DNA of 64,000 nucleotides, taken from assembly GCA_024643385.1 (NCBI GenBank), contig JAHEMZ010000004.1, forward strand, positions 1 through 64,000. Reading direction: 5' to 3'. Numbering within the stretch: position 1 is the stretch's first letter; each line of letters starts with the position of its first letter. A program made the position numbers and the translations under genes. Of this stretch, positions 22,358 through 44,485 are shown one piece after another. The notes below the pieces were generated by a model. The model made no database searches. It saw only the letters and a list, made by a program, of their open reading frames with translations, and had not been told where the DNA came from. This DNA comes from Flavobacteriaceae bacterium (GTDB taxonomy: Bacteria; Bacteroidota; Bacteroidia; Flavobacteriales; Flavobacteriaceae).

Positions 22358-23359
22358 TTACTTAAAAAATAGCGCAGGATAAGCTAGCCTGGGGTTTTTC
22401 TTTAGTAATCCAATTTGAAAGCTACTATTTAGAAATGCCCATCCATATCCGAAGAACTGCACAAATAAAGCTATAATAGTTAATCCACCGATAATTGCAC
22501 TGCGATTTTTAAAAGAAGCATCCAAGCCAATTAAAGTTACATAGGCAAGCAATGGCCAGATTAGGATGTAAGAACCTACCACTGCAAAAAAGAGGCTTAG
22601 CAGGGAATAGATAAGAAAGAAACTGGGAAACCAAAATGTGATCTTTGCAGAGGTGGGATGCCAGGAATTTAAAATGGGCCGTACCAAACCAAATTTTCGT
22701 ACTTGCACATAAAATTTTTTCCATGAAATTCTTCGTTTGTGAAATACGAAAGCATTGGGAATAAATTGAGTTGTGAATCCTGCCTTGACGAGCCTTTGTG
22801 AAAGGTCCGGATCTTCTCCCGGATGAATATCTGAAAAACCTCCGGTAGTTTCAAAAGCAACTTTTGAAATCCCCATATTAAAACTTCGTGGTTCAAACTT
22901 TTGAACACTCGTTTTGCTGCCTCTTATTCCTCCTGTGGTGTAAAAGGAGGTCATTACATAATTAATAGCCTTTTGTAAGGGGGTGAAAGTTATATGGGCA
23001 GCATCTGCGCCACCGTAACAATCGGAATAATTCTGTTGTAAGAATTCATCTACTGTATTGAGATAATGAACGGGCAGCAAACAGTCGGAATCTAGAATGA
23101 TAAAATAATCCCCTTTTGCGTTTCGCATGCCAAAGTTACGAGAATCTCCCGGTCCAGAATTCATTTTATAGTAGTACGCAATCGAAAGCCGATCTTTAAA
23201 ATCGTTGACAACAGGTTCACTGGATTGCGTAGAGCCATCTTCAATGATCAATATTTCATAGGAGACATTCGTTTTCATTTGCACAAAACTGTTCAATAGC
23301 TCCCTAATTTCATCAGGTCTATTGTAAACAGGAATGATAAAGGAATAAAACCGCTGCAT
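22358..23359 (-). CDS. Family 2 glycosyltransferase with C-terminal membrane segments
   Basis: 333 residues from the ATG at 23357-23359 (MQRFYSFIIPVYNRPDEI); a TTG six codons upstream lies inside a -7 box. The GT-A fold is clear: FIIPVYNRPDEIREL, EILIIEDGS near 41, ILDSDCLLP (DxD-like) near 91, and HPGEDPDLSQRLVKAGF (acceptor-site ED) near 180. Hydrophobic segments near 230-310 anchor it in the inner membrane. Sugar donor and acceptor are unknown. It is the first gene of the operon with YbbR and coaE. Confidence 0.88.
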   Translation of the reverse strand: MQRFYSFIIPVYNRPDEIRELLNSFVQMKTNVSYEILIIEDGSTQSSEPVVNDFKDRLSIAYYYKMNSGPGDSRNFGMRNAKGDYFIILDSDCLLPVHYLNTVDEFLQQNYSDCYGGADAAHITFTPLQKAINYVMTSFYTTGGIRGSKTSVQKFEPRSFNMGISKVAFETTGGFSDIHPGEDPDLSQRLVKAGFTTQFIPNAFVFHKRRISWKKFYVQVRKFGLVRPILNSWHPTSAKITFWFPSFFLIYSLLSLFFAVVGSYILIWPLLAYVTLIGLDASFKNRSAIIGGLTIIALFVQFFGYGWAFLNSSFQIGLLKKNPRLAYPALFFK

Positions 23360-23364
23360 AAATA

Positions 23365-23372
23365 CAAATGTA
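23365..23372 (-). promoter_or_regulatory. -7 box of the glycosyltransferase-ybbR-coaE operon
   Basis: TACATTTG on the minus strand matches TAnnTTTG exactly, 5 bases before the ATG at 23359 and just past the terminator of the upstream giant gene. It sits on the edge of the 2.1-kb repeat; the second copy of the repeat has AAAATG instead of CAAATG there, which breaks the box. Confidence 0.45.
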
Positions 23373-25485
23373 AACAATTAAAAAAGCCACCCCGATGAAT
23401 CGGGATGGCTTCTTATCTATTAATTTGAAAAAATTATCTCTTAATCACCTTGTAGGTTCCTTTTTGTCCATCTACAGTTACTTCCATAAGGTAAGCACCA
23501 GCAGCTAGGTTAGAAACGTTCAACTCAGTGGTAGTTGCATTTACATTAAGATCCATAAGTTTTTGACCAAGGATGTTGTAAAGCGCAACTTTCTCAATAT
23601 TCTCAACTGATGATAAATTAACTATATCGTTCGTTGGGTTTGGATAGAAAGCAAAGCCTTCGATCTCATTACTGTCTACACCTAACTGACAGTTATCAAA
23701 GATGATATCGGTTACTGCACCAGAGTTCACTACGAAACAGTAGTATGTTTGACCAGCCACTACAGGAATCGTAGCAGTTTCGCTAGGCAAACACTGGTTT
23801 TGCCACCAGTCTACCCACACTAATTCGTCCTCGGTAGAAGACTCATCAGGAGCGGTATAGAAGGTAACTGAACTAACACCAGGAAAATCAGAAGACAAAG
23901 TCATATTAACTGTATTCCCTCCCAATATTTCAGCAATAATCGGGTTACCTTCAACATCAGAGATCATCACTACAGGTATTGTAACCTGGTCTCCAAATTC
24001 TCCACCTCCCATAACGATAGGATCGCCAGGTTGGTTGTTCACAACAACAACAGCTACTGCTCCTTCATTCTGTGCAGCCAAGGCCTTAAGTCCAAATTCA
24101 CAAGAACCTCGTTTTAAAATGGCAAACTTGCCGTTCAAATCTCCACCATTGATAATTGGATCACAAGCATCGTTAGGATCACCTGTAGTATCATCATCAA
24201 TAACAACAACTGCATCTTGCGTTAATGGAGTAAATGGTATTGCTCCACCAAAACTAGCCGCTACAGGAGAATAATTACCTGCTAAAGGTCCATTATTTAC
24301 ACTCAAGTTCGTTCCTGGAGCATCTCCTGGAGTACCAATAGTTCCGGTAATGAATCCATCCAATTCAGGAGTGAATACATACCATACACCGTTTGCACCG
24401 CTGATATCACAACCAGATGGAGTACCATCTTCTAAGGTGGCACAAGGCATAGCTACAGCCTCATCGGTAAATGGACATCCTACATCAATCAAATTGATCG
24501 CATCTGCAATATCATCGTTCGGTGGGGCAACACATTCACATGTGAGAGATAACTCAAAGTTTCCGGTGGCACCGGCAAATCCATGAACTAAGATATAGTA
24601 AGTAGTCGCTCCATCACCAGAGAACTCAACTGTAGTCTGGAAATTAGGACAATTTGGATCGTCATCATTACCAGCCACACAAACTAGATTATTACAATCG
24701 CCTGAATAAACAGATACTTTTGTATCATAGTCGGTATTTGGACTACATGTAGTAAGAACGTAGTTTGAAGCTAGACCGGAATCATCCACAAACTTATACC
24801 ATACACCCGGTTGAGTCGAAGTATCACAATCAGGAGCATTGTCAGGAGTAGCTCCAATACTAGATCCTAGAAGTGAATCCCCACAACTAATCGGTAAAGC
24901 TCCCTCACAGTCGTCGAAAGTAACTAATTCAACAGCTACGAATTCAGCTGACATTAATAGGTCTGGACCTAATCCACCACCTACGGTACAATCAGCAAAA
25001 GTTCCCCATGTAGGACACAATCCGAATCCTCCACCCGGGTTTTGCCAAAGAGCCGCCGCATCATTTCCATCATCAGCACTAGACCAGAACCACTGTCCGG
25101 AAACTCCAAACTCCATAACAGCAACAACACTTACCCAATAGGTTGTATTAGGGTTTAAAACAGGAGCTCCTGTTGGCTCTAAAGTAAATGAACCATCACC
25201 ATCAGCATCAACACTTCCTGGGAAAGTTTCTGTAAATGCCACTGAACCAGGTACACCTCCGTTATCAGTATACACAGTAAGAACAACTGTGTTATTTGGA
25301 TCAATAGGAAGACCTGCTCCTGAACCTGTAATATCTAAAGAACAAAGCTCTCCTGCATCTGGGCCAGGTAATACTACATCATCTACAGCTTCTGAATCGA
25401 AATCTGGGAAATCAGGGAAGATTTGTGAAGGAACGCCATTACCTGTTGGAGAAACATTCTCGTAAGTAAAATCGCCACAGCCTCC
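23366..25485 (-). repeat. Long direct repeat, copy 1 (2,120 bp)
   Basis: From 23366 to 25485 the sequence matches 27727-29846 at a constant offset of 4,361 bases. I saw no mismatch in the segments compared, and the encoded 683 C-terminal residues are identical. It holds the end of the first giant gene, its stop and terminator. The left edge is at C/A (23365/27726) and the right edge at A/G (25486/29847), inside a glycine-coding tract. Confidence 0.93.
23380..23410 (-). terminator. Terminator of the 1406-aa T9SS gene
   Basis: Stem of 10 pairs with one mismatch (23386-23395 with 23400-23409), loop TGAA, and a minus-strand T run. An identical copy lies at 27741-27771. Confidence 0.85.
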
Positions 25486-27654
25486 ACCGCCGCCGCCGCC
25501 TTCGCAAAGACCGAAAGCTGCGTTAGCGATTAATTCACCTTCTGCTCCACCACCTGCAGAGGCAATTTCTACAGAAGCAATATTCTCTTCAGCGATATAT
25601 CCGGCAAACACAATAGTAGAACCATTAGGTATCGTAACTGTGATTGTTTCTATCAATCCGCTTGCGCCATAGATATCAAGGTTAACATCTGTTGGTGAAC
25701 CAATTAACGGCAAAGCGATATCAACTCCAAAAGCACTTACGTCATCATTTGGAAATTGAATTTCAAGAATATCAACGAAAGTATTAGGTCCAACTAAAAC
25801 ATCCGTATTTCCGAGGGCTCCTACAGGAATTACCACCGTATCATTATTTGGATCTGTCGGAATTAAAGAACGAACATCAATTCCTTCTTCAATTTCTCCG
25901 GCTGGGTAACAGCTGTTACCACCTGAGTTAATAGGACCGTCGCAAGAAGTAATTGCTCCCGGGCCTCCTGTAAAATCTTCATTGATCAAAGTACCACCAA
26001 AGGCAGCCTCGAAAGAAGCTCTGTCTGTAAATGTACCGGCAGTACATCCACCACCGCCGCCACCAATAGGTGCGCATTCACCCGCAAAATCGTATACGAC
26101 CTCTCTAATTGGGTCTGGAACAGACCAAGTACCTGTACCTGCATCAAACTGAACATAAGGTGATCCTTCAACCGGTGTATCATCTGTATACATCCAGAAA
26201 ACAGTAGGTTGATTCGTTGCAGTTCCCATACTAACTTCGATCCAGTAGGTCGTGTCAGAACCGGCATCTCCAGGGAAAGTAAAAGGAGTCACTGCCATGG
26301 TCATTTCATATTGGTCGGCAATCGGGTTGGGAGCCCAAGGTTGTGAACTTAAAACGGTAGGAACAACGGTCTCACTTCCTATCACTGCTCCTGGAAAACC
26401 ACTTGCATCTTCATAATACACAACATTAGCAGTTGTTGGAGGATCGCTTGGTGCCAAAGTAAGGAAATAGGTACTGATATTATCAATTGTGAAATCTTCA
26501 CCTGTGGCTACTAAAATATCAGCCGCTGATTTAAAAGCAGAATCTACTGACGATCCTGTACCGCCAGCACCTAAACCTGAAAGTGGATGCTCTTGGTTAC
26601 AAGCGCCTCCGCCACCGCCACCACAGCTCGTACAATCACCATAAACTTCTATAGGAGCTCCAAGAGCGGTAGCTGTTCCTGTATCCAATAAAGGACCCCA
26701 TGTGCCAGCAAGGGATTGCAATGCATTACCTGTAGTTGATTGACCTAGAATCACTACCGGTGGCTGCCATGGTCCGGAAGCTAAGGTACCTCCCATTTGC
26801 CAATCCACCCAATAAGTTCCTGCAGGAAGGGATAATCCCGTTGCGTCCACCGTCACTCTATAAATTGCTCTAGTGGTACCAGGATTATCTTCTGCTTGAC
26901 GATACGCATTGCTCCATACAGCTGATCCTAAAACATTGGTAACGTCATCACCCCATATAACCGAGCTTCCTCCTACTGAAGGATCACCATCCCAAATTTG
27001 AACATTGATTTCATTGATGGTTGGAGGGGATGTTGGTGCTCCGGTCTGATAGCCATAAAAAACTAGTTCGGTAACATCATAATCATCTGTAAGAACAATA
27101 TCCTCTGCGATACGATTATTATTAAGAACTTGCATTCCAGCTCCAAGCGTATTCATCCCTAAAGTTACGTTCTCAAGAACACTTAAGTCAGGATTACCGG
27201 CAACGTTGAAATAAGGTCCACTGGTATAAGCTAAATCTACAAGGCTTCTCGAATGATTAGCCCCATTGTAAGTAGATTGCATATAGGAAACCGGTCCAGA
27301 CAATAACGTACTACCTTCTACCGCATCCACAGCATCTGCTGTAGGTGTTAATACTGTTGTTAACATGACAGGACTCCGTCTTAGAGCACTAATCATGGCT
27401 GCAGCAGGATCACTAGTTAAAGTAACCGTTTTCTTCGCGTTCGCTCCGGCTGATCTTGCGGCCATTCCTGCGTAAACTTCAGCAGGAACCGCTGAAAAGC
27501 TGTCAAATGGAAGATCGCTCTTGTTTGAAACTTGCTTTTTTATTGGGCTCTTTTTAGCTTTCGTCGGGTATTCGATACTAGGTGTACCCACTCTTTCCTG
27601 GCCAAAAGCCACAAAGCACAGGAGTAAAGCAATTAATAAGGTAAATTTTTTCAT
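23434..27654 (-). CDS. Giant multidomain T9SS cargo protein A, tandem paralog
   Basis: 1406 residues, no full-length family recognised. Signal peptide 1-19 (ends FVAFGQ). The middle (about 80-536) has beta-rich modules split by poly-Gly linkers at 345-350, 531-536 and 719-725, each with nearby cysteines. Residues 537-718 are homologous to 603-777 of the neighbour. From 724 to the end it is identical to the neighbour: a Cys-rich beta domain (726-910), a pre-peptidase C-terminal (PPC)-like domain (914-1039), a second PPC-like domain interrupted by a protease-associated (PA) domain (about 1115-1255), and a T9SS sorting domain (1330-1406). No peptidase catalytic motif was seen. Likely a surface or secreted adhesin or binding protein; its own promoter region and terminator flank it. 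Confidence 0.85.
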   Translation of the reverse strand: MKKFTLLIALLLCFVAFGQERVGTPSIEYPTKAKKSPIKKQVSNKSDLPFDSFSAVPAEVYAGMAARSAGANAKKTVTLTSDPAAAMISALRRSPVMLTTVLTPTADAVDAVEGSTLLSGPVSYMQSTYNGANHSRSLVDLAYTSGPYFNVAGNPDLSVLENVTLGMNTLGAGMQVLNNNRIAEDIVLTDDYDVTELVFYGYQTGAPTSPPTINEINVQIWDGDPSVGGSSVIWGDDVTNVLGSAVWSNAYRQAEDNPGTTRAIYRVTVDATGLSLPAGTYWVDWQMGGTLASGPWQPPVVILGQSTTGNALQSLAGTWGPLLDTGTATALGAPIEVYGDCTSCGGGGGGACNQEHPLSGLGAGGTGSSVDSAFKSAADILVATGEDFTIDNISTYFLTLAPSDPPTTANVVYYEDASGFPGAVIGSETVVPTVLSSQPWAPNPIADQYEMTMAVTPFTFPGDAGSDTTYWIEVSMGTATNQPTVFWMYTDDTPVEGSPYVQFDAGTGTWSVPDPIREVVYDFAGECAPIGGGGGGCTAGTFTDRASFEAAFGGTLINEDFTGGPGAITSCDGPINSGGNSCYPAGEIEEGIDVRSLIPTDPNNDTVVIPVGALGNTDVLVGPNTFVDILEIQFPNDDVSAFGVDIALPLIGSPTDVNLDIYGASGLIETITVTIPNGSTIVFAGYIAEENIASVEIASAGGGAEGELIANAAFGLCEGGGGGGGCGDFTYENVSPTGNGVPSQIFPDFPDFDSEAVDDVVLPGPDAGELCSLDITGSGAGLPIDPNNTVVLTVYTDNGGVPGSVAFTETFPGSVDADGDGSFTLEPTGAPVLNPNTTYWVSVVAVMEFGVSGQWFWSSADDGNDAAALWQNPGGGFGLCPTWGTFADCTVGGGLGPDLLMSAEFVAVELVTFDDCEGALPISCGDSLLGSSIGATPDNAPDCDTSTQPGVWYKFVDDSGLASNYVLTTCSPNTDYDTKVSVYSGDCNNLVCVAGNDDDPNCPNFQTTVEFSGDGATTYYILVHGFAGATGNFELSLTCECVAPPNDDIADAINLIDVGCPFTDEAVAMPCATLEDGTPSGCDISGANGVWYVFTPELDGFITGTIGTPGDAPGTNLSVNNGPLAGNYSPVAASFGGAIPFTPLTQDAVVVIDDDTTGDPNDACDPIINGGDLNGKFAILKRGSCEFGLKALAAQNEGAVAVVVVNNQPGDPIVMGGGEFGDQVTIPVVMISDVEGNPIIAEILGGNTVNMTLSSDFPGVSSVTFYTAPDESSTEDELVWVDWWQNQCLPSETATIPVVAGQTYYCFVVNSGAVTDIIFDNCQLGVDSNEIEGFAFYPNPTNDIVNLSSVENIEKVALYNILGQKLMDLNVNATTTELNVSNLAAGAYLMEVTVDGQKGTYKVIKR

Positions 27655-27726
27655 GATTTATTATAATAGATTAGTTAATAGAACTTAAAAATATTCAAAA
27701 AAAAGGAAACTACAAAAGAATAATGA

Positions 27727-29846
27727 AAATGTAAACAATTAAAAAAGCCACCCCGATGAATCGGGATGGCTTCTTATCTATTAATTTGAAAAAATTATCT
27801 CTTAATCACCTTGTAGGTTCCTTTTTGTCCATCTACAGTTACTTCCATAAGGTAAGCACCAGCAGCTAGGTTAGAAACGTTCAACTCAGTGGTAGTTGCA
27901 TTTACATTAAGATCCATAAGTTTTTGACCAAGGATGTTGTAAAGCGCAACTTTCTCAATATTCTCAACTGATGATAAATTAACTATATCGTTCGTTGGGT
28001 TTGGATAGAAAGCAAAGCCTTCGATCTCATTACTGTCTACACCTAACTGACAGTTATCAAAGATGATATCGGTTACTGCACCAGAGTTCACTACGAAACA
28101 GTAGTATGTTTGACCAGCCACTACAGGAATCGTAGCAGTTTCGCTAGGCAAACACTGGTTTTGCCACCAGTCTACCCACACTAATTCGTCCTCGGTAGAA
28201 GACTCATCAGGAGCGGTATAGAAGGTAACTGAACTAACACCAGGAAAATCAGAAGACAAAGTCATATTAACTGTATTCCCTCCCAATATTTCAGCAATAA
28301 TCGGGTTACCTTCAACATCAGAGATCATCACTACAGGTATTGTAACCTGGTCTCCAAATTCTCCACCTCCCATAACGATAGGATCGCCAGGTTGGTTGTT
28401 CACAACAACAACAGCTACTGCTCCTTCATTCTGTGCAGCCAAGGCCTTAAGTCCAAATTCACAAGAACCTCGTTTTAAAATGGCAAACTTGCCGTTCAAA
28501 TCTCCACCATTGATAATTGGATCACAAGCATCGTTAGGATCACCTGTAGTATCATCATCAATAACAACAACTGCATCTTGCGTTAATGGAGTAAATGGTA
28601 TTGCTCCACCAAAACTAGCCGCTACAGGAGAATAATTACCTGCTAAAGGTCCATTATTTACACTCAAGTTCGTTCCTGGAGCATCTCCTGGAGTACCAAT
28701 AGTTCCGGTAATGAATCCATCCAATTCAGGAGTGAATACATACCATACACCGTTTGCACCGCTGATATCACAACCAGATGGAGTACCATCTTCTAAGGTG
28801 GCACAAGGCATAGCTACAGCCTCATCGGTAAATGGACATCCTACATCAATCAAATTGATCGCATCTGCAATATCATCGTTCGGTGGGGCAACACATTCAC
28901 ATGTGAGAGATAACTCAAAGTTTCCGGTGGCACCGGCAAATCCATGAACTAAGATATAGTAAGTAGTCGCTCCATCACCAGAGAACTCAACTGTAGTCTG
29001 GAAATTAGGACAATTTGGATCGTCATCATTACCAGCCACACAAACTAGATTATTACAATCGCCTGAATAAACAGATACTTTTGTATCATAGTCGGTATTT
29101 GGACTACATGTAGTAAGAACGTAGTTTGAAGCTAGACCGGAATCATCCACAAACTTATACCATACACCCGGTTGAGTCGAAGTATCACAATCAGGAGCAT
29201 TGTCAGGAGTAGCTCCAATACTAGATCCTAGAAGTGAATCCCCACAACTAATCGGTAAAGCTCCCTCACAGTCGTCGAAAGTAACTAATTCAACAGCTAC
29301 GAATTCAGCTGACATTAATAGGTCTGGACCTAATCCACCACCTACGGTACAATCAGCAAAAGTTCCCCATGTAGGACACAATCCGAATCCTCCACCCGGG
29401 TTTTGCCAAAGAGCCGCCGCATCATTTCCATCATCAGCACTAGACCAGAACCACTGTCCGGAAACTCCAAACTCCATAACAGCAACAACACTTACCCAAT
29501 AGGTTGTATTAGGGTTTAAAACAGGAGCTCCTGTTGGCTCTAAAGTAAATGAACCATCACCATCAGCATCAACACTTCCTGGGAAAGTTTCTGTAAATGC
29601 CACTGAACCAGGTACACCTCCGTTATCAGTATACACAGTAAGAACAACTGTGTTATTTGGATCAATAGGAAGACCTGCTCCTGAACCTGTAATATCTAAA
29701 GAACAAAGCTCTCCTGCATCTGGGCCAGGTAATACTACATCATCTACAGCTTCTGAATCGAAATCTGGGAAATCAGGGAAGATTTGTGAAGGAACGCCAT
29801 TACCTGTTGGAGAAACATTCTCGTAAGTAAAATCGCCACAGCCTCC
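27727..29846 (-). repeat. Long direct repeat, copy 2 (2,120 bp)
   Basis: Second copy of the 23366-25485 repeat, same orientation, offset 4,361 bases. It contains the 3' half and terminator of the 1466-aa gene and ends at the same position within the glycine tract. Recombination between the copies would remove 4,361 bases and leave one intact chimeric gene. Confidence 0.93.
27741..27771 (-). terminator. Terminator of the 1466-aa T9SS gene
   Basis: Identical to the hairpin at 23380-23410, 24 bases after the stop of the upstream paralog, followed by six Ts on the minus strand. It separates the two paralogs, so each is probably its own transcript. Confidence 0.85.
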
Positions 29847-32195
29847 GCCGCCGCCGCCGCCTCCGGCACATTCACCAAATGCGATATTTCCAATTAATTC
29901 AACGTTTGCACCAGATAAATCTTCCAGTTCTACACTGACAATTGTTTCAGAGGCGATATAACCCCAAAACGATTCCGGATTGGTACCGTTTACAGATTGG
30001 GTATCAATTAATCCACCCACTCCAAAAATTCGCACTTCAACCGGACCTGTTCCTAGTAAAGTAACAAGGTCGAAACCAAAGGAGTTTACATCATTGTTAG
30101 GGAAGTTAATGATGGTATAATCAAGAAAAGCATTAGAACCAACTACAGGAATGGTATTTCCAAATCCATCTGCAGGATCTACATAGACTGTTTGATCCCC
30201 TGCCGAATTATTGGAGGTAATCTCGATTCCGGGTAAAATTTCTCCCGCCGGGAAACAAGAATCCCCTGCTTCACTAATCACTAAACCACATTGTGAAAGA
30301 AATCCGGGTCCACCCGCTAAATCTTCCACCGGTAAAGCGCCAGCTTCAGCGTCAAAAGATGCTCGATCGGTATAAACACCGGTCGCACATCCGCCACCGC
30401 CACCGCCGCCGCCGGCGTCTGGCATACCAACCCAAGCCATTTGGGTTAAGTCTGGAACATTGATTGCTCCAACTAAAGTAGTCGCACCAGTTGCAGTATC
30501 AACTGATCTCCATTCAGCAGTGAATGCTACAGCATTAAAAGCAGCAGTAAATAATTGGTCTGAATTTACATCATAGGTCATTCCTTGACCAAAATTTAAA
30601 TCAATACCGGTAGAACCCACCAATGTATGGGCACCGGTAGCTAAATCAACAGCCCAAAGGCTATCGTCAACAACATCGGTTAAATAACCTACACCCGATG
30701 CATCAATAGCAAAAGTAACAGCTGCGGTACTTCCATTGTCAGTACCTACCAATGTTCCGGTTACTGTTCCAAGGTCAATGACACTTAATGAAACGTTGGT
30801 TCCAAAAACACCTGAAAGACCATATAAAGTTCCCGTGGATGGGTCAAATTCCATACCTACCCAACTACCTCCACCCGGAGCAGTAACATTCCCTAAGGAA
30901 GTATATACACCCGTAGCAAGATCAATACTATATAATGTATTTGTGCTCGAAGTTATTGCGTATCCGGTAGTACCATCCCCATTAGGATCGATGGCGCCAG
31001 CACCTTCAAAATCACCATTTGGATCATTAGGAGAATTTGCTATTTGTGTATAAACAGCTGGAGCTGCACTTTCAAAGGAACCAAAAGTTATTGTTTGGCT
31101 TTCATAGCCATAGGCAGTTGGAATACCGCCACCGCCGCCACCGCCGGCTTCGTCTCCTACAATATTCATAACAAATGAATTTGGTAATCCAAATGCAGCT
31201 AGTAAATCTGTTGGTACAACTGCGCCACAATCAGGGGCTAAAATCCATGAAGGACCTGTTTGACCAAGTGTATTACACCCTAAAAAGAAGCTGGTTACAC
31301 CATCTCCTTCTATACTAATTTCGTAAACTAAATTATCCCCAAAAGGTATTGTTGCAGCAATAGGTATTGAAACTATAGTACCTGCAGCAGCCGGAGTAAG
31401 GGTCTGAGTCACAGAATTCTGAAGTGTTAATACACCTCCGGGAAATGCTCCTACTAAAGACCAAATATTAACGGTTACATCAAAATTACCACTAATGGTT
31501 TCAACTCCAAATTCAGCACTCGTTACCTCAAAATCAGTCGTTACTCCAAAGTCATCATCTAAATCAAAATCTCTAAAAAAGCTATTGTTTAGAGCAGTAC
31601 CATTATTACAAGTAATCCCGTCTCCAGGTGTAATGGTTTGAGACACACTATGTGTAATGGTAACAGGCATTCTATTGTTACCACTGTTGGTTTTCGCCGT
31701 TGAAGTACCGGCAGGTCCATTGAAAATTGGAGATCCAGATCGACCATCCAAATTAGTGAACGCTAAATTTGGCTCTACATTAGACACATCTGTGATAATT
31801 TTTCTAGAACCGAAATAAGCTCTTAACATTTGAGCTTCTTCCATCGAAAAATAATCAGAGACGTTACCGGTCTGAGAACCAAGATTATTGTATTTGTTCA
31901 CTACAGCCTGCATCTTAGGGGATTGATCCTCTAATTTATTGACGGCGACTTTAGATGAAACAGAAACAGTTTTCTTTGCGTTTGCTCCGGCTGATCTTGC
32001 GGCCATTCCGGCATAAACTTCAGCAGGAACCGAAGTCAAACTCTGGTAAGGCAAAGAAACTTGGTTTGTCGCTTGTTTTTTAACCGGGCTCTTTTTAGCT
32101 TTTGTCGGGTATTCGATACTAGGCGTACCCACTCTTTCCTGGCCAAAAGCAACAAAGCACAGGAGTAAAGCAATTAATAAGGTAAATTTTTTCAT
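27795..32195 (-). CDS. Giant multidomain T9SS cargo protein B, tandem paralog
   Basis: 1466 residues. The first ~36 residues match protein A except I/V at 38, and VPAEVYAGMAARSAGANAKK recurs near residue 56. Residues about 180-350 form a beta domain unlike A. Poly-Gly tracts lie at 351-357, 595-602 and 778-785. Residues 358-594 look like a repeat-rich beta-propeller-like domain (LYSIDLATGVYTSLG, LWAVDLATGAHTLVG, RSVDTATGATTLVG). Residues 603-777 are homologous to 537-718 of A. From 784 on it is identical to A: Cys-rich domain, PPC-like, PPC-like with inserted PA domain (about 1175-1315), T9SS sorting domain (1390-1466). No catalytic motif was seen. It lies upstream of A in transcription order. 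Confidence 0.85.
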   Translation of the reverse strand: MKKFTLLIALLLCFVAFGQERVGTPSIEYPTKAKKSPVKKQATNQVSLPYQSLTSVPAEVYAGMAARSAGANAKKTVSVSSKVAVNKLEDQSPKMQAVVNKYNNLGSQTGNVSDYFSMEEAQMLRAYFGSRKIITDVSNVEPNLAFTNLDGRSGSPIFNGPAGTSTAKTNSGNNRMPVTITHSVSQTITPGDGITCNNGTALNNSFFRDFDLDDDFGVTTDFEVTSAEFGVETISGNFDVTVNIWSLVGAFPGGVLTLQNSVTQTLTPAAAGTIVSIPIAATIPFGDNLVYEISIEGDGVTSFFLGCNTLGQTGPSWILAPDCGAVVPTDLLAAFGLPNSFVMNIVGDEAGGGGGGGIPTAYGYESQTITFGSFESAAPAVYTQIANSPNDPNGDFEGAGAIDPNGDGTTGYAITSSTNTLYSIDLATGVYTSLGNVTAPGGGSWVGMEFDPSTGTLYGLSGVFGTNVSLSVIDLGTVTGTLVGTDNGSTAAVTFAIDASGVGYLTDVVDDSLWAVDLATGAHTLVGSTGIDLNFGQGMTYDVNSDQLFTAAFNAVAFTAEWRSVDTATGATTLVGAINVPDLTQMAWVGMPDAGGGGGGGGCATGVYTDRASFDAEAGALPVEDLAGGPGFLSQCGLVISEAGDSCFPAGEILPGIEITSNNSAGDQTVYVDPADGFGNTIPVVGSNAFLDYTIINFPNNDVNSFGFDLVTLLGTGPVEVRIFGVGGLIDTQSVNGTNPESFWGYIASETIVSVELEDLSGANVELIGNIAFGECAGGGGGGGGCGDFTYENVSPTGNGVPSQIFPDFPDFDSEAVDDVVLPGPDAGELCSLDITGSGAGLPIDPNNTVVLTVYTDNGGVPGSVAFTETFPGSVDADGDGSFTLEPTGAPVLNPNTTYWVSVVAVMEFGVSGQWFWSSADDGNDAAALWQNPGGGFGLCPTWGTFADCTVGGGLGPDLLMSAEFVAVELVTFDDCEGALPISCGDSLLGSSIGATPDNAPDCDTSTQPGVWYKFVDDSGLASNYVLTTCSPNTDYDTKVSVYSGDCNNLVCVAGNDDDPNCPNFQTTVEFSGDGATTYYILVHGFAGATGNFELSLTCECVAPPNDDIADAINLIDVGCPFTDEAVAMPCATLEDGTPSGCDISGANGVWYVFTPELDGFITGTIGTPGDAPGTNLSVNNGPLAGNYSPVAASFGGAIPFTPLTQDAVVVIDDDTTGDPNDACDPIINGGDLNGKFAILKRGSCEFGLKALAAQNEGAVAVVVVNNQPGDPIVMGGGEFGDQVTIPVVMISDVEGNPIIAEILGGNTVNMTLSSDFPGVSSVTFYTAPDESSTEDELVWVDWWQNQCLPSETATIPVVAGQTYYCFVVNSGAVTDIIFDNCQLGVDSNEIEGFAFYPNPTNDIVNLSSVENIEKVALYNILGQKLMDLNVNATTTELNVSNLAAGAYLMEVTVDGQKGTYKVIKR

Positions 32196-32308
32196 AATTT
32201 ATATTAATAGATTAGTTAATAATATATAAAAATATTCAAAAAAAAGGGAAACTAAAAAGTTTTTCATATAACATTTTAGGAAATTTTTAAGAAAAATAAA
32301 TAAAAGAA

Positions 32309-32360: not shown

Positions 32361-33173
32361 TTATTTCATAAAGGCTTCCATCACTTCATTGCTCACCCCC
32401 ATATTAGAAAATCCTCCATCATTATACAAGTTTTGCAGCGTTACTCTTTTGGTTAGATCGCTAAAGAGGGAAACGGTATAATTGGCGCAATCCAAGGCAG
32501 TGGCATTTCCCAATGGTGACATTTTTTCCGCGTAGGCAATAAATCCATCAAATCCCTTCACCCCTTGCCCGGCCGTGGTCGGCGTAGGTGATTGCGAAAT
32601 AGTATTTACTCTTACTTTTTTATCCTTTCCGAAGAAATAACCGAAACTTCGAGCGATCGATTCCAAATAGGCTTTATTATCAGCCATATCATTATAGTCC
32701 GGAAAAACTCTTTGTGCCGCCATATAGGTTAGGGCGACAATACTGCCCCATTCATTCATGGCGTCTTTTTTATACAACACCTGCATGGTCTTGTGAAACG
32801 ACAGCGCTGACACGTCCCATCCTTTTTCTGTCCAATCATAATTTTGATCGGTATAGTGTTTTCCTTTTCGCACATTTACCGACATTCCTATGGAATGCAA
32901 TACGAAATCCAATTTTCCACCTAAATGTTCCACAGCCTGATTTACCAAGTTCTCCAGATCTTCCATATTTGTTGCATCCGCCGGAACGATCATCGAATTG
33001 GTCTTCTCTGCTAAGGCATTAATTTGGCCCATACGCATGGCGATAGGTGCATTGGTTAATACAAAAGATCCACCTTCTTCATGCACTCTTTCCGCTGTTT
33101 TCCATGCGATAGAATTTTCATCTAAAGCTCCAAAAATGATTCCTCTTTTTCCTTTTAATAAATTATAAGCCAT
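32361..33173 (-). CDS. fabI: Enoyl-ACP reductase (FabI type)
   Basis: 270 residues. It is an SDR-superfamily protein with the FabI-specific cofactor pattern GIIFGALDENSIAWKTA (residues 10-26), and a Tyr...Lys pair in RVFPDYNDMADNKAYLES near 155-170 as the catalytic residues. The enzyme reduces the trans-2-enoyl-ACP double bond in the last step of each fatty-acid elongation round, using NADH. recN precedes it on the same strand with 36 bases between. A palindromic terminator follows. Confidence 0.95.
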   Translation of the reverse strand: MAYNLLKGKRGIIFGALDENSIAWKTAERVHEEGGSFVLTNAPIAMRMGQINALAEKTNSMIVPADATNMEDLENLVNQAVEHLGGKLDFVLHSIGMSVNVRKGKHYTDQNYDWTEKGWDVSALSFHKTMQVLYKKDAMNEWGSIVALTYMAAQRVFPDYNDMADNKAYLESIARSFGYFFGKDKKVRVNTISQSPTPTTAGQGVKGFDGFIAYAEKMSPLGNATALDCANYTVSLFSDLTKRVTLQNLYNDGGFSNMGVSNEVMEAFMK

Positions 33174-41872: not shown

Positions 41873-44485
41873 TTAATTTTTCACAAAACGTTTGGTATAG
41901 GCCATTCCATTAGAAACAAATTGCACATAATAAACACCTGACGCCAAAATAGACACATCGAAGGTCATGCTGCTCTTGGAAACATCCAGGTCTTGGACCA
42001 AGACCCCGAGGGAGGTAAATATAGAAATTTCGTCGTATTGCCCTTTCAAAATATCAATATTAACCACTGAATTGGTTGGATTGGGATATAACTTAATATT
42101 CATACTAGCCTGTTGAGCAAAGTTCTCCAGAACTTCTTTATTAGTAGTTGAAATAGGAGCTAGTGCGTTATCGCCGGTAATAATTACTTGGTCAAACCAA
42201 AGTTGATCATTGTTCGAATTACCGTTCGTTCTAAAACGAAGACGGTTGTTCCCATTGAACGTAAAATTCCCACCATTGGTCACCACAATATTTCCATTAT
42301 AGAAGGTACCATTCTGCAATTCGCCTCCGTTAAGATATTCCCCTAAAAGTTGGTAAGAAGACCCGTTAAAGAATTCGATGATCAGTCCTTCCCCATTTTC
42401 CATACTCGTTGCATAGAAGTGAAATTCTATATTAATTTCCGTATTCCCTGTTAAATCAAGGGCTGGAGATACTGTATTGGAAGTTGAAGATCCGTCTCTA
42501 AGTTTTATGGATGAGCTTCCTTCATAAGAATTTATGGAAGTTTGCCAACTACAATCATTTCCACCATTAGACCATCCGTCAAATCCGGTTTCAAAATAAT
42601 AGGCTGCTATTTCTCCCGGATTGGATCCACCACCCTCTAAGGTTGTAAAAGTAGTATTTGCGTTTCCTGAAACATTACCGGCGGCATCTTCTGCATTCAC
42701 TGACGCTGCATACAGCGTTAATGGGGACAGCCCGGATACATCAAAGGAGGTATTCGAAGACGTACCGACCACATTTCCATCGATGGAAATATTATAATGA
42801 TCCACACCTACATTGTCGGTAGAGGCATTCCAGTTCAGGGTAGCACCGCTGGCCGTTATATTACTGGCTACTAGATTTGTTGGATTAGAAGGAGCTTCCG
42901 TATCCGGCGGGCCTGCTTGGATCTGAAAAGCACCCACCACTCCTTTTCGTCCGCTGTTATAGTATTCGTTAATGAACCAGAAAGTTTGATCATCAGAGGG
43001 ATCGACATCTATTTTACTGTAATCGCCGTAACGAGTTCCAGGAATCTTACCGTTCCCATTGCGAATTAGACCTTCGCTAACAGTCATTGTTCCAAGTGGA
43101 TCGGTACTAAGTCTACCGGTAAAGTAAGAACTGATATATACCGTACCCGGCGTATTAGGTCCGGACATGGAGGTATATCCCATACCTATATTCCCTTGAC
43201 CATCCATCGCTAAACTTGCATGCCATGCATGTCTGCCGTCGGGAGCGGTATAGGTTCCTTCTTGATACAAAGACCAAGGCTGATTATCTCCGTTTTGACG
43301 GAATTCATACCAACGAACTCCGGCTAGTTCTCCACCCCCTCCGTCGGTATCCACCACAAAATTAAATACAGCAGAATTATGATTTGCATACTTTCGGAAT
43401 TGAGCTTGATTCATGATGGTTGCTTGCAATGCATCCACACTGATCTTTCTTCCACCACCAGGTTGTTGAAGGTTAACAAAACTACCATTGTCAAATACAC
43501 TGATAAAGGGTGTCGTATTGATCTGTTGTGGATTCGAGATAGTTGAGTTGGCAGGGGTATTCCAATTGACATCAATAGTCCATAATTTAATATGGTCTTG
43601 AGATACTCCCGACCAAGCATCATCCTGTAAATATACTATGGTAGCACCTCCTGCGGCCGGTAAATTACCATTGGTAACATTCAAGGCCTGCGGACTAAAA
43701 AATCCGCTGGTCACTAATCCGGGTAAGTTGAAGCCAATGATCTGTGCCGAAGGACTGCCATTTAGCATTGCCGAGCGTTCCAAAGCCCAGACTTTATTAT
43801 TCCCGCCGGTATTTTCGGTGATGTAATATCCGTCACTCCAAACCGAAAGTTTTTGATAATCCTGAATGGCTGAAATAGTATAAACGTACCAATCTGATGT
43901 GATTGGGTTCGAACCTGTAGAAACCGCTATTTGTGCGCCATTATTTATGCTTAAAAAGGTTACTACCCAGCGGTCGGCTGCATTGTCATAGGATACGGTG
44001 AGATCACAGCACCCACCATTCGGAAAAATGGCAGGATTCGGAGCCGTGGGGGGTCGTAATACATTTCCCGATTTGTCGTAAATAGCAAATCCGGTATTAA
44101 ATACAACAAATACATGATTTGGACCGATCGCCAAAGAAGGATCGGTGGGTTGTGAACTGGAAGTATAGGCATCGAATACCACACTTGGTGGAGCCACACG
44201 AACGCTTTGTTCCATTTCATGTCTGTTTCGAACAAAATAATCATCTTCGGTTTGCGGATCTTGTCCCGCAACAATTTGATTGGCGATAGAACGTTTGTCT
44301 TTAGCCTCTCTGTTTAAATTTTCCGCAGGCACCATATCTTGGGGTCTTGATGCCATGGAGGTAACATATTCCACAGAGGAAATTGTTCCTTGATAAACAG
44401 CTTTATTTTCAGCATTCTCCTGTGCCCAAAGGACACTCGAAAACGATACAAAAAACAAAGCAATAAGTACGTTTTTAATTTTCAT
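41873..44485 (-). CDS. Fibronectin III-containing T9SS cargo protein
   Basis: 870 residues. Signal peptide about 1-21 (ending SVLWAQ). The first ~520 residues form a beta-rich region with many Asp/Gly turns (for example DPSLAIGPNHVFVVFN and DGQGNIGMGYTSMSG), possibly a propeller. A fibronectin type III domain lies at about 533-617 (APSNPTNLVASNI), then a carbohydrate-binding-like jelly-roll (about 630-770), then a T9SS sorting domain (about 800-870, LYPNPTNSVVNI to TKRFVKN). No catalytic residues were identified. Probably a cell-surface or secreted binding protein. Confidence 0.85.
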   Translation of the reverse strand: MKIKNVLIALFFVSFSSVLWAQENAENKAVYQGTISSVEYVTSMASRPQDMVPAENLNREAKDKRSIANQIVAGQDPQTEDDYFVRNRHEMEQSVRVAPPSVVFDAYTSSSQPTDPSLAIGPNHVFVVFNTGFAIYDKSGNVLRPPTAPNPAIFPNGGCCDLTVSYDNAADRWVVTFLSINNGAQIAVSTGSNPITSDWYVYTISAIQDYQKLSVWSDGYYITENTGGNNKVWALERSAMLNGSPSAQIIGFNLPGLVTSGFFSPQALNVTNGNLPAAGGATIVYLQDDAWSGVSQDHIKLWTIDVNWNTPANSTISNPQQINTTPFISVFDNGSFVNLQQPGGGRKISVDALQATIMNQAQFRKYANHNSAVFNFVVDTDGGGGELAGVRWYEFRQNGDNQPWSLYQEGTYTAPDGRHAWHASLAMDGQGNIGMGYTSMSGPNTPGTVYISSYFTGRLSTDPLGTMTVSEGLIRNGNGKIPGTRYGDYSKIDVDPSDDQTFWFINEYYNSGRKGVVGAFQIQAGPPDTEAPSNPTNLVASNITASGATLNWNASTDNVGVDHYNISIDGNVVGTSSNTSFDVSGLSPLTLYAASVNAEDAAGNVSGNANTTFTTLEGGGSNPGEIAAYYFETGFDGWSNGGNDCSWQTSINSYEGSSSIKLRDGSSTSNTVSPALDLTGNTEINIEFHFYATSMENGEGLIIEFFNGSSYQLLGEYLNGGELQNGTFYNGNIVVTNGGNFTFNGNNRLRFRTNGNSNNDQLWFDQVIITGDNALAPISTTNKEVLENFAQQASMNIKLYPNPTNSVVNIDILKGQYDEISIFTSLGVLVQDLDVSKSSMTFDVSILASGVYYVQFVSNGMAYTKRFVKN

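Follow-up and report, generated by a model that had tools for sequence, protein, structure and literature searches.

Silent-cassette antigenic variation of the pilin/vlsE type is recombination-based and acts on genes with conserved flanks and a variable centre. The genes analysed here, which occupy a slot between fabI and a GT2 glycosyltransferase gene in flavobacteria, likewise have conserved flanks, a variable centre and signs of what is presumably recombination, but they differ from the pilS/vls type in that each gene appears to be a full cassette; no further copies of the front or back half, hence no silent, promoterless partial cassettes, were found in the draft genome (G000) that carries the pair studied here. 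In Helicobacter pylori, babA/babB and homA/homB are outer-membrane paralogues that have diverged in one part but are conserved at their ends, the 3′ segment of the hom genes clusters by strain whilst segment 1 clusters by orthologue, chimeric bab genes exist, and gene conversion has been inferred (PMC4552749, PMC2795765). The slot genes resemble these in their conserved ends and divergent part, in the clustering of their 3′ parts by genome and in the occurrence of a chimera; however, where bab and hom occupy separate loci in one species, the slot genes stand in tandem at one syntenic slot across genera, encode T9SS-sorted multidomain proteins with modules separated by poly-Gly, and vary in copy number from 0 to 4. 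The gingipain/HagA proteins of Porphyromonas gingivalis are modular surface proteins with a T9SS CTD and rearranged, repeated adhesin domains, for which domain rearrangement, allelic exchange and gene conversion have been invoked (PMC5266723). The slot proteins share the modular, CTD-bearing build and the domain rearrangement, but in P. gingivalis adhesin repeats vary within separate protease/adhesin genes, whereas in the slot the variation concerns entire front modules, followed by a constant half that is homogenised between tandem genes, and, unlike in the gingipains, no protease domain was found. The process is already known; of the syntenic fabI-GT2 slot with variable numbers of modular T9SS cassettes we found no description in the literature searched. 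From comparisons of sequence, we consider it very probable that recurrent homologous recombination homogenises the constant export/display half of tandem slot cassettes, while the front modules diverge or are swapped.

The window, by which we mean the whole analysed stretch of 64,000 nucleotides, contains two such cassettes, gene A and gene B, with the following features, listed in the direction of transcription:

32361..33173, minus strand: fabI (enoyl-ACP reductase), conserved left edge of the slot
32064..32259, minus strand: 5′ homology patch of gene B (upstream region and putative signal-peptide codons), 89% to the gene A patch
27795..32195, minus strand: gene B, 1466 aa, T9SS type A sorting-domain protein, B1-B2-B3 followed by the constant R4-K-PA-CTD; transcriptionally upstream
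31140..31868, minus strand: variable module B1, ~60% amino-acid identity to the upstream gene of G324, all-beta model
30414..31124, minus strand: variable module B2, with 44–51% identical modules in several other genera
29862..30389, minus strand: variable module B3, 68% to a G408 module that adjoins an A3-type module within one gene
29841..29864, minus strand: poly-Gly linker of gene B, where the identical tract starts
27727..29846, minus strand: upstream repeat copy (constant 3′ half of gene B, stop and terminator), identical to 23366–25485
27742..27775, minus strand: intrinsic-terminator-like hairpin after gene B, within the repeat
27523..27718, minus strand: 5′ homology patch of gene A (upstream region and putative signal-peptide codons)
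23434..27654, minus strand: gene A, 1406 aa, T9SS type A sorting-domain protein, A1-A2-A3 followed by the constant R4-K-PA-CTD
26620..27369, minus strand: variable module A1, 58–73% in G128, G225, G179, G255, G408 and G217, absent from gene B
26062..26604, minus strand: variable module A2
25498..26046, minus strand: variable module A3, 44% to B3, 69% to G408, 67% to G128
25480..25500, minus strand: poly-Gly linker of gene A, where the identical tract starts
23366..25485, minus strand: downstream repeat copy (constant 3′ half of gene A, stop and terminator)
23381..23414, minus strand: intrinsic-terminator-like hairpin after gene A, within the repeat
22358..23359, minus strand: GT2 glycosyltransferase gene, conserved right edge of the slot

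Comparison of the window with itself at an offset of 4361 yields a single exact run, in which 23366–25485 equals 27727–29846 over 2,120 bp without a mismatch, and which is not a chance match. It takes in the final 2,049 coding nucleotides (683 codons, 0 differences, dS 0), the stop and the terminator, and ends about a dozen bases beyond; the original prediction had claimed just this extent of identity, and it holds base by base. The upstream edge of the run lies inside a poly-Gly linker, at codon 784 of gene B and codon 724 of gene A. The middles of the genes had likewise been described as strongly diverged, as is confirmed by nucleotide identities of 37–66% per 50 codons (dN ~0.7, dS > 1), and the two fronts have a common segment of 41 aa only. 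The 5′ ends are similar too, sharing 97% over the first 75 coding nucleotides and 84% over ~90 nucleotides upstream, and each gene thus consists of a conserved start, a variable middle and a constant end. Saturation of the 5′ halves (dS > 1) excludes a recent duplication of the whole gene.

The C-terminal sorting domain (TIGR04183 / PF18962) scored above cut-offs in both products, both contain a PA domain, and a choice-of-anchor R match falls within the constant half; the gene B product also has a sub-threshold DUF4394 match. Judged by eye, the N-terminus MKKFTLLIALLLCFVAFGQ looks like a signal peptide, and both proteins would be exported through the T9SS. No protease or other enzyme domain was found in either product (Pfam: no peptidase domain), and an assignment as T9SS-dependent M36 metallopeptidase (NF038113) was rejected, the matches being partial, confined to the region around the PA domain and reaching 162 bits, where 885 is the cut-off. 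AlphaFold predicted all-beta folds for A1 and B1 at intermediate confidence (pLDDT 66 and 64); searched with Foldseek, these models gave only weak matches with low TM-scores, including beta-sandwich carbohydrate-binding and phage-fibre-type structures, on the strength of which we claim no ligand; the modules may bind surfaces, carbohydrates, hosts, prey or phages. Comparison of genes A and B with L072, L074, L064 and L067 shows that the PA domain is optional: it is inserted between K domain and CTD in the slot genes of the window, G217, G255 and G324, but most other slot genes lack it. A few genes upstream of A/B, at 41873–44485, the window carries one more gene for a T9SS-sorted protein, of 870 aa and containing a fibronectin type III domain.

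The genome of origin is a 126-contig draft in which no 16S gene was detected, as is to be expected for a MAG assembled from short reads, and given this state both repeat copies may derive from one edge of the assembly graph. Had an assembler passed twice through such a collapsed edge, the true genome could have just one gene, the second copy being artificial, or it could have two non-identical copies, only their perfect match being so. An exact repeat of 2.1 kb does exceed the usual insert length, and the locus L200 begins with a 99-mer that is repeated 3,133 bp further along, an assembly break at just such a repeat. However, the 5′ half of gene A is joined to the repeat on both sides, which requires a tandem arrangement somewhere, the flanking genes, fabI and GT2, are those found in all relatives, and four other genomes (G276, G324, G221 and G101) have the same tandem layout, each within a single contig, which makes the layout in the window credible. 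We regard an artefact as improbable; the single-contig relatives weaken this reading, but for the exact base identity in the window it may still hold.

The slot recurs across many genera. fabI was found in 382 of 397 family genomes, and in the window the GT2 gene is followed by a YbbR-like gene, coaE and a two-component pair. We examined 73 slots, of which 67 were complete, and counted each gene of at least 250 aa between fabI and GT2: among the complete slots, 23 held no large gene, 27 held one, 11 two, 4 three and 2 four. Gene number differs even between congeners (one in G124 vs. two in G324, one in G077 vs. two in G296). In the genus of G366 and G190 (L065 and L066 vs. L112 and L116) the fabI-GT2 slot is empty, at 122–131 bp; a different locus, located at a contig edge or close to one, holds a gene whose C-terminus is ~75% identical. 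The two ends of the single G324 contig (L059/L060) overlap by ~11.5 kb with indels, such that one slot gene is present twice, once shortened (1053 vs. 1218 aa); this record was probably not circularised. A 64%-identical copy of a flavobacterial slot-gene domain was also detected on a contig titled Candidatus Rokubacteria (L146, OMJU01000036.1), which is probably mis-binned or mislabelled.

The asymmetry between front and back recurs in at least 14 other slot tandem pairs, in which the fronts have diverged and the backs are far more alike (dS 0–0.55 over the last 150 aa), several with exact runs of 500–1,400 nucleotides. Eight surveyed genomes have saturated or strongly diverged fronts and similar backs, with longest exact coding runs of 1,381 (G276), 823 (G324), 512 (G101), 176 (G096), 164 (G221), 85 (G306), 62 (G388) and 41 nucleotides (G296). 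In G276, a single contig of 3.35 Mb, the exact repeat spans 1,439 bp and ends at the terminator; here, as in the window, the constant half is followed by its own terminator. Scanning contigs with the K-domain alignment as query added six named-contig loci with the same asymmetry (the same scan with the whole protein as query gave no matches): L157 (MAG Flavobacterium sp. BCD2, 881 nucleotides exact), L182 (MAG Aequorivita sp. SP75, 682), L193 (A. todarodis, 314), L195 (Aequorivita sp. CIP111184, 176), L208 (95) and L199 (uncultured Aequorivita), the last with four genes forming two separately homogenised pairs, one with 803 nucleotides exact. Loci that duplicated surveyed genomes were counted once only, and L159, with a weaker form of the same pattern, was left out owing to long exact matches to a g74-related locus (L163). 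Seven further slots (G194, G063, G153, G005, G341, G120 and G061) hold tandem genes without such homogenisation.

Tract borders in these genomes bear on how the identity arose. In G096 the homogenised tract is internal, with diverged homologous sequence on both sides, and in G101 the 512-nucleotide run has differences on both flanks; tracts bounded in this way are expected of gene conversion. The window tract reaches the natural end of homology, where conversion and unequal exchange leave the same result. A recent duplication of the 3′ half alone, with no continuing exchange, would look the same in the window by itself, but the pattern recurs in many genera with differing tract borders and ages, and every pair consists of complete cassettes with related 5′ ends, the patches of which are anciently related; we think such a duplication very improbable. 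Of the two origins put forward in the original prediction, recent gene conversion or a very recent duplication of the 3′ half only, conversion fits better in view of the G096 and G101 tracts, whilst the recent homogenisation of just the 3′ half stands and is seen again in single-contig genomes.

Phylogenetic relationships differ between the two ends of the genes. In a tree of the C-terminal constant region, each of the nine tandem pairs tested groups by genome, yet the front parts of most pair genes find a better match in other genomes than in their sister gene; for example, the front of gene A shares 59% over 401 aa with G225 and that of gene B 49% over 453 aa with G324. The genus g218 is the clearest case of segments that group with their orthologues elsewhere than at the 3′ end, the pattern of the bab/hom type. 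The downstream gene of G221 is orthologous along its whole length to the upstream gene of G388, with a back-half dS of 1.50 between the species, but differs from its neighbour, whose front is unrelated, by a back-half dS of only 0.035. Silent sites in this stretch are therefore free to change, and the two species had already separated when the homogenisation took place. Copies could also be kept identical if the back half were under strong purifying selection at the DNA level, and the constant part is indeed the most conserved part of the proteins, but a dS of 1.3–1.5 between g218 species against 0.035–0.39 within a genome, over the same stretch, refutes such selection as the cause, and we give it practically no credence.

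Back-half copies dispersed within one genome are mostly 65–74% alike. There are two exceptions, L147/L154 with 85% and a pair in Altibacter lentus JLT2010 (L185/L187), in which copies ~572 kb apart share 96.6% over 1,359 bp, a similarity confined to the back half; of the two, L187 occupies the fabI slot and L185 a different site. Proximity is thus not essential, and homogenisation can be ectopic.

The position of the g218 orthologues, downstream in G221 and upstream in G388, is also what could be expected if the tandems came from single-crossover integration of a foreign or excised molecule, consisting of a front half and a back half, into a resident back half. Identical flanking repeats would then arise at once and not by conversion between long-standing neighbours; such an event predicts exactly the order fabI-B5′-R-A5′-R-GT2, and front modules do turn over between congeners. 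Against this stand the G096 and G101 tracts, which with diverged homology on both sides need conversion, and the ancient relationship of the 5′ patches of pairs. Integration as the source of the tandems seems to us possible but unlikely, and integration and conversion may both act.

Ahead of the constant K-(PA)-CTD end, the slot genes carry their modules in shuffled orders. G128 reads A1-B2-A3 and G408 reads A1-B3-A3, mixing module types that sit in separate genes in the window. In G027, a single case in a gene cut by the contig end, the first module of the G276 upstream gene is joined to later modules of the G276 downstream gene, and the joint is a poly-Gly linker. Ends of local protein matches (HSPs) fall no more than 8 aa from a stretch of four or more Gly in 13.8% of cases, compared to 3.4% for random positions (maximum 9.2% in 2,000 draws). 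As poly-Gly linkers are also domain borders and the HSP ends are phylogenetically non-independent, this enrichment supports linker-directed recombination without proving it, and may reflect protein architecture.

Taking together the observed sequence pattern, synteny, copy-number differences, module mosaics and chimera, we propose that the slot between fabI and GT2 carries one or more expression cassettes for a large, modular protein that would be exported by the T9SS. Each cassette would begin with a conserved upstream region and signal peptide, continue with two or three modules that can be exchanged and are often set apart by poly-Gly linkers, and end in a constant C-terminal half that bears the T9SS sorting signal. 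Where cassettes stand in tandem, recombination between the constant halves, probably by a RecA-type route and mostly as gene conversion, sometimes as unequal exchange, would repeatedly make the backs identical, and occasional unequal exchange or integration would add or remove cassettes. The front modules would meanwhile diverge and be exchanged, with exchange at the linkers giving rise to chimeras. In the window, the 683 codons without a difference suggest that the latest homogenisation was very recent.

Deletion between the repeats in the window was predicted to leave one intact chimeric gene. It would indeed remove 4,361 bp, but since the repeats are identical the product would be a protein identical to that of gene B, leaving gene B only. 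The further idea, that a population could switch between long and short alleles, has its counterpart between species, in the one-gene and two-gene slots of congeners and in the G027 chimera; however, such a deletion is a one-way loss and therefore not reversible switching, and a second gene would be regained only from another chromosome or from imported DNA. More tentatively, and with rather less than even confidence, we suggest that the slot could be a dedicated, family-wide diversification locus, in which the constant halves and 5′ patches would serve as homology arms and the G-rich DNA of the poly-Gly linkers as preferred joints, the front modules being reshuffled in new combinations on an unchanging T9SS display handle.

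For surface proteins, partial concerted evolution has its best-documented example in H. pylori, and the slot follows the same logic at one syntenic address in many genera of free-living and marine flavobacteria. A warning follows for genomics, as short-read assemblies will break or falsely unify such genes. Copy number, tract age and module order all vary across slots, which thereby form a natural series on the diversification of exported proteins, and this series allows one to ask whether the linkers act as joints in recombination and which targets the proteins recognise.
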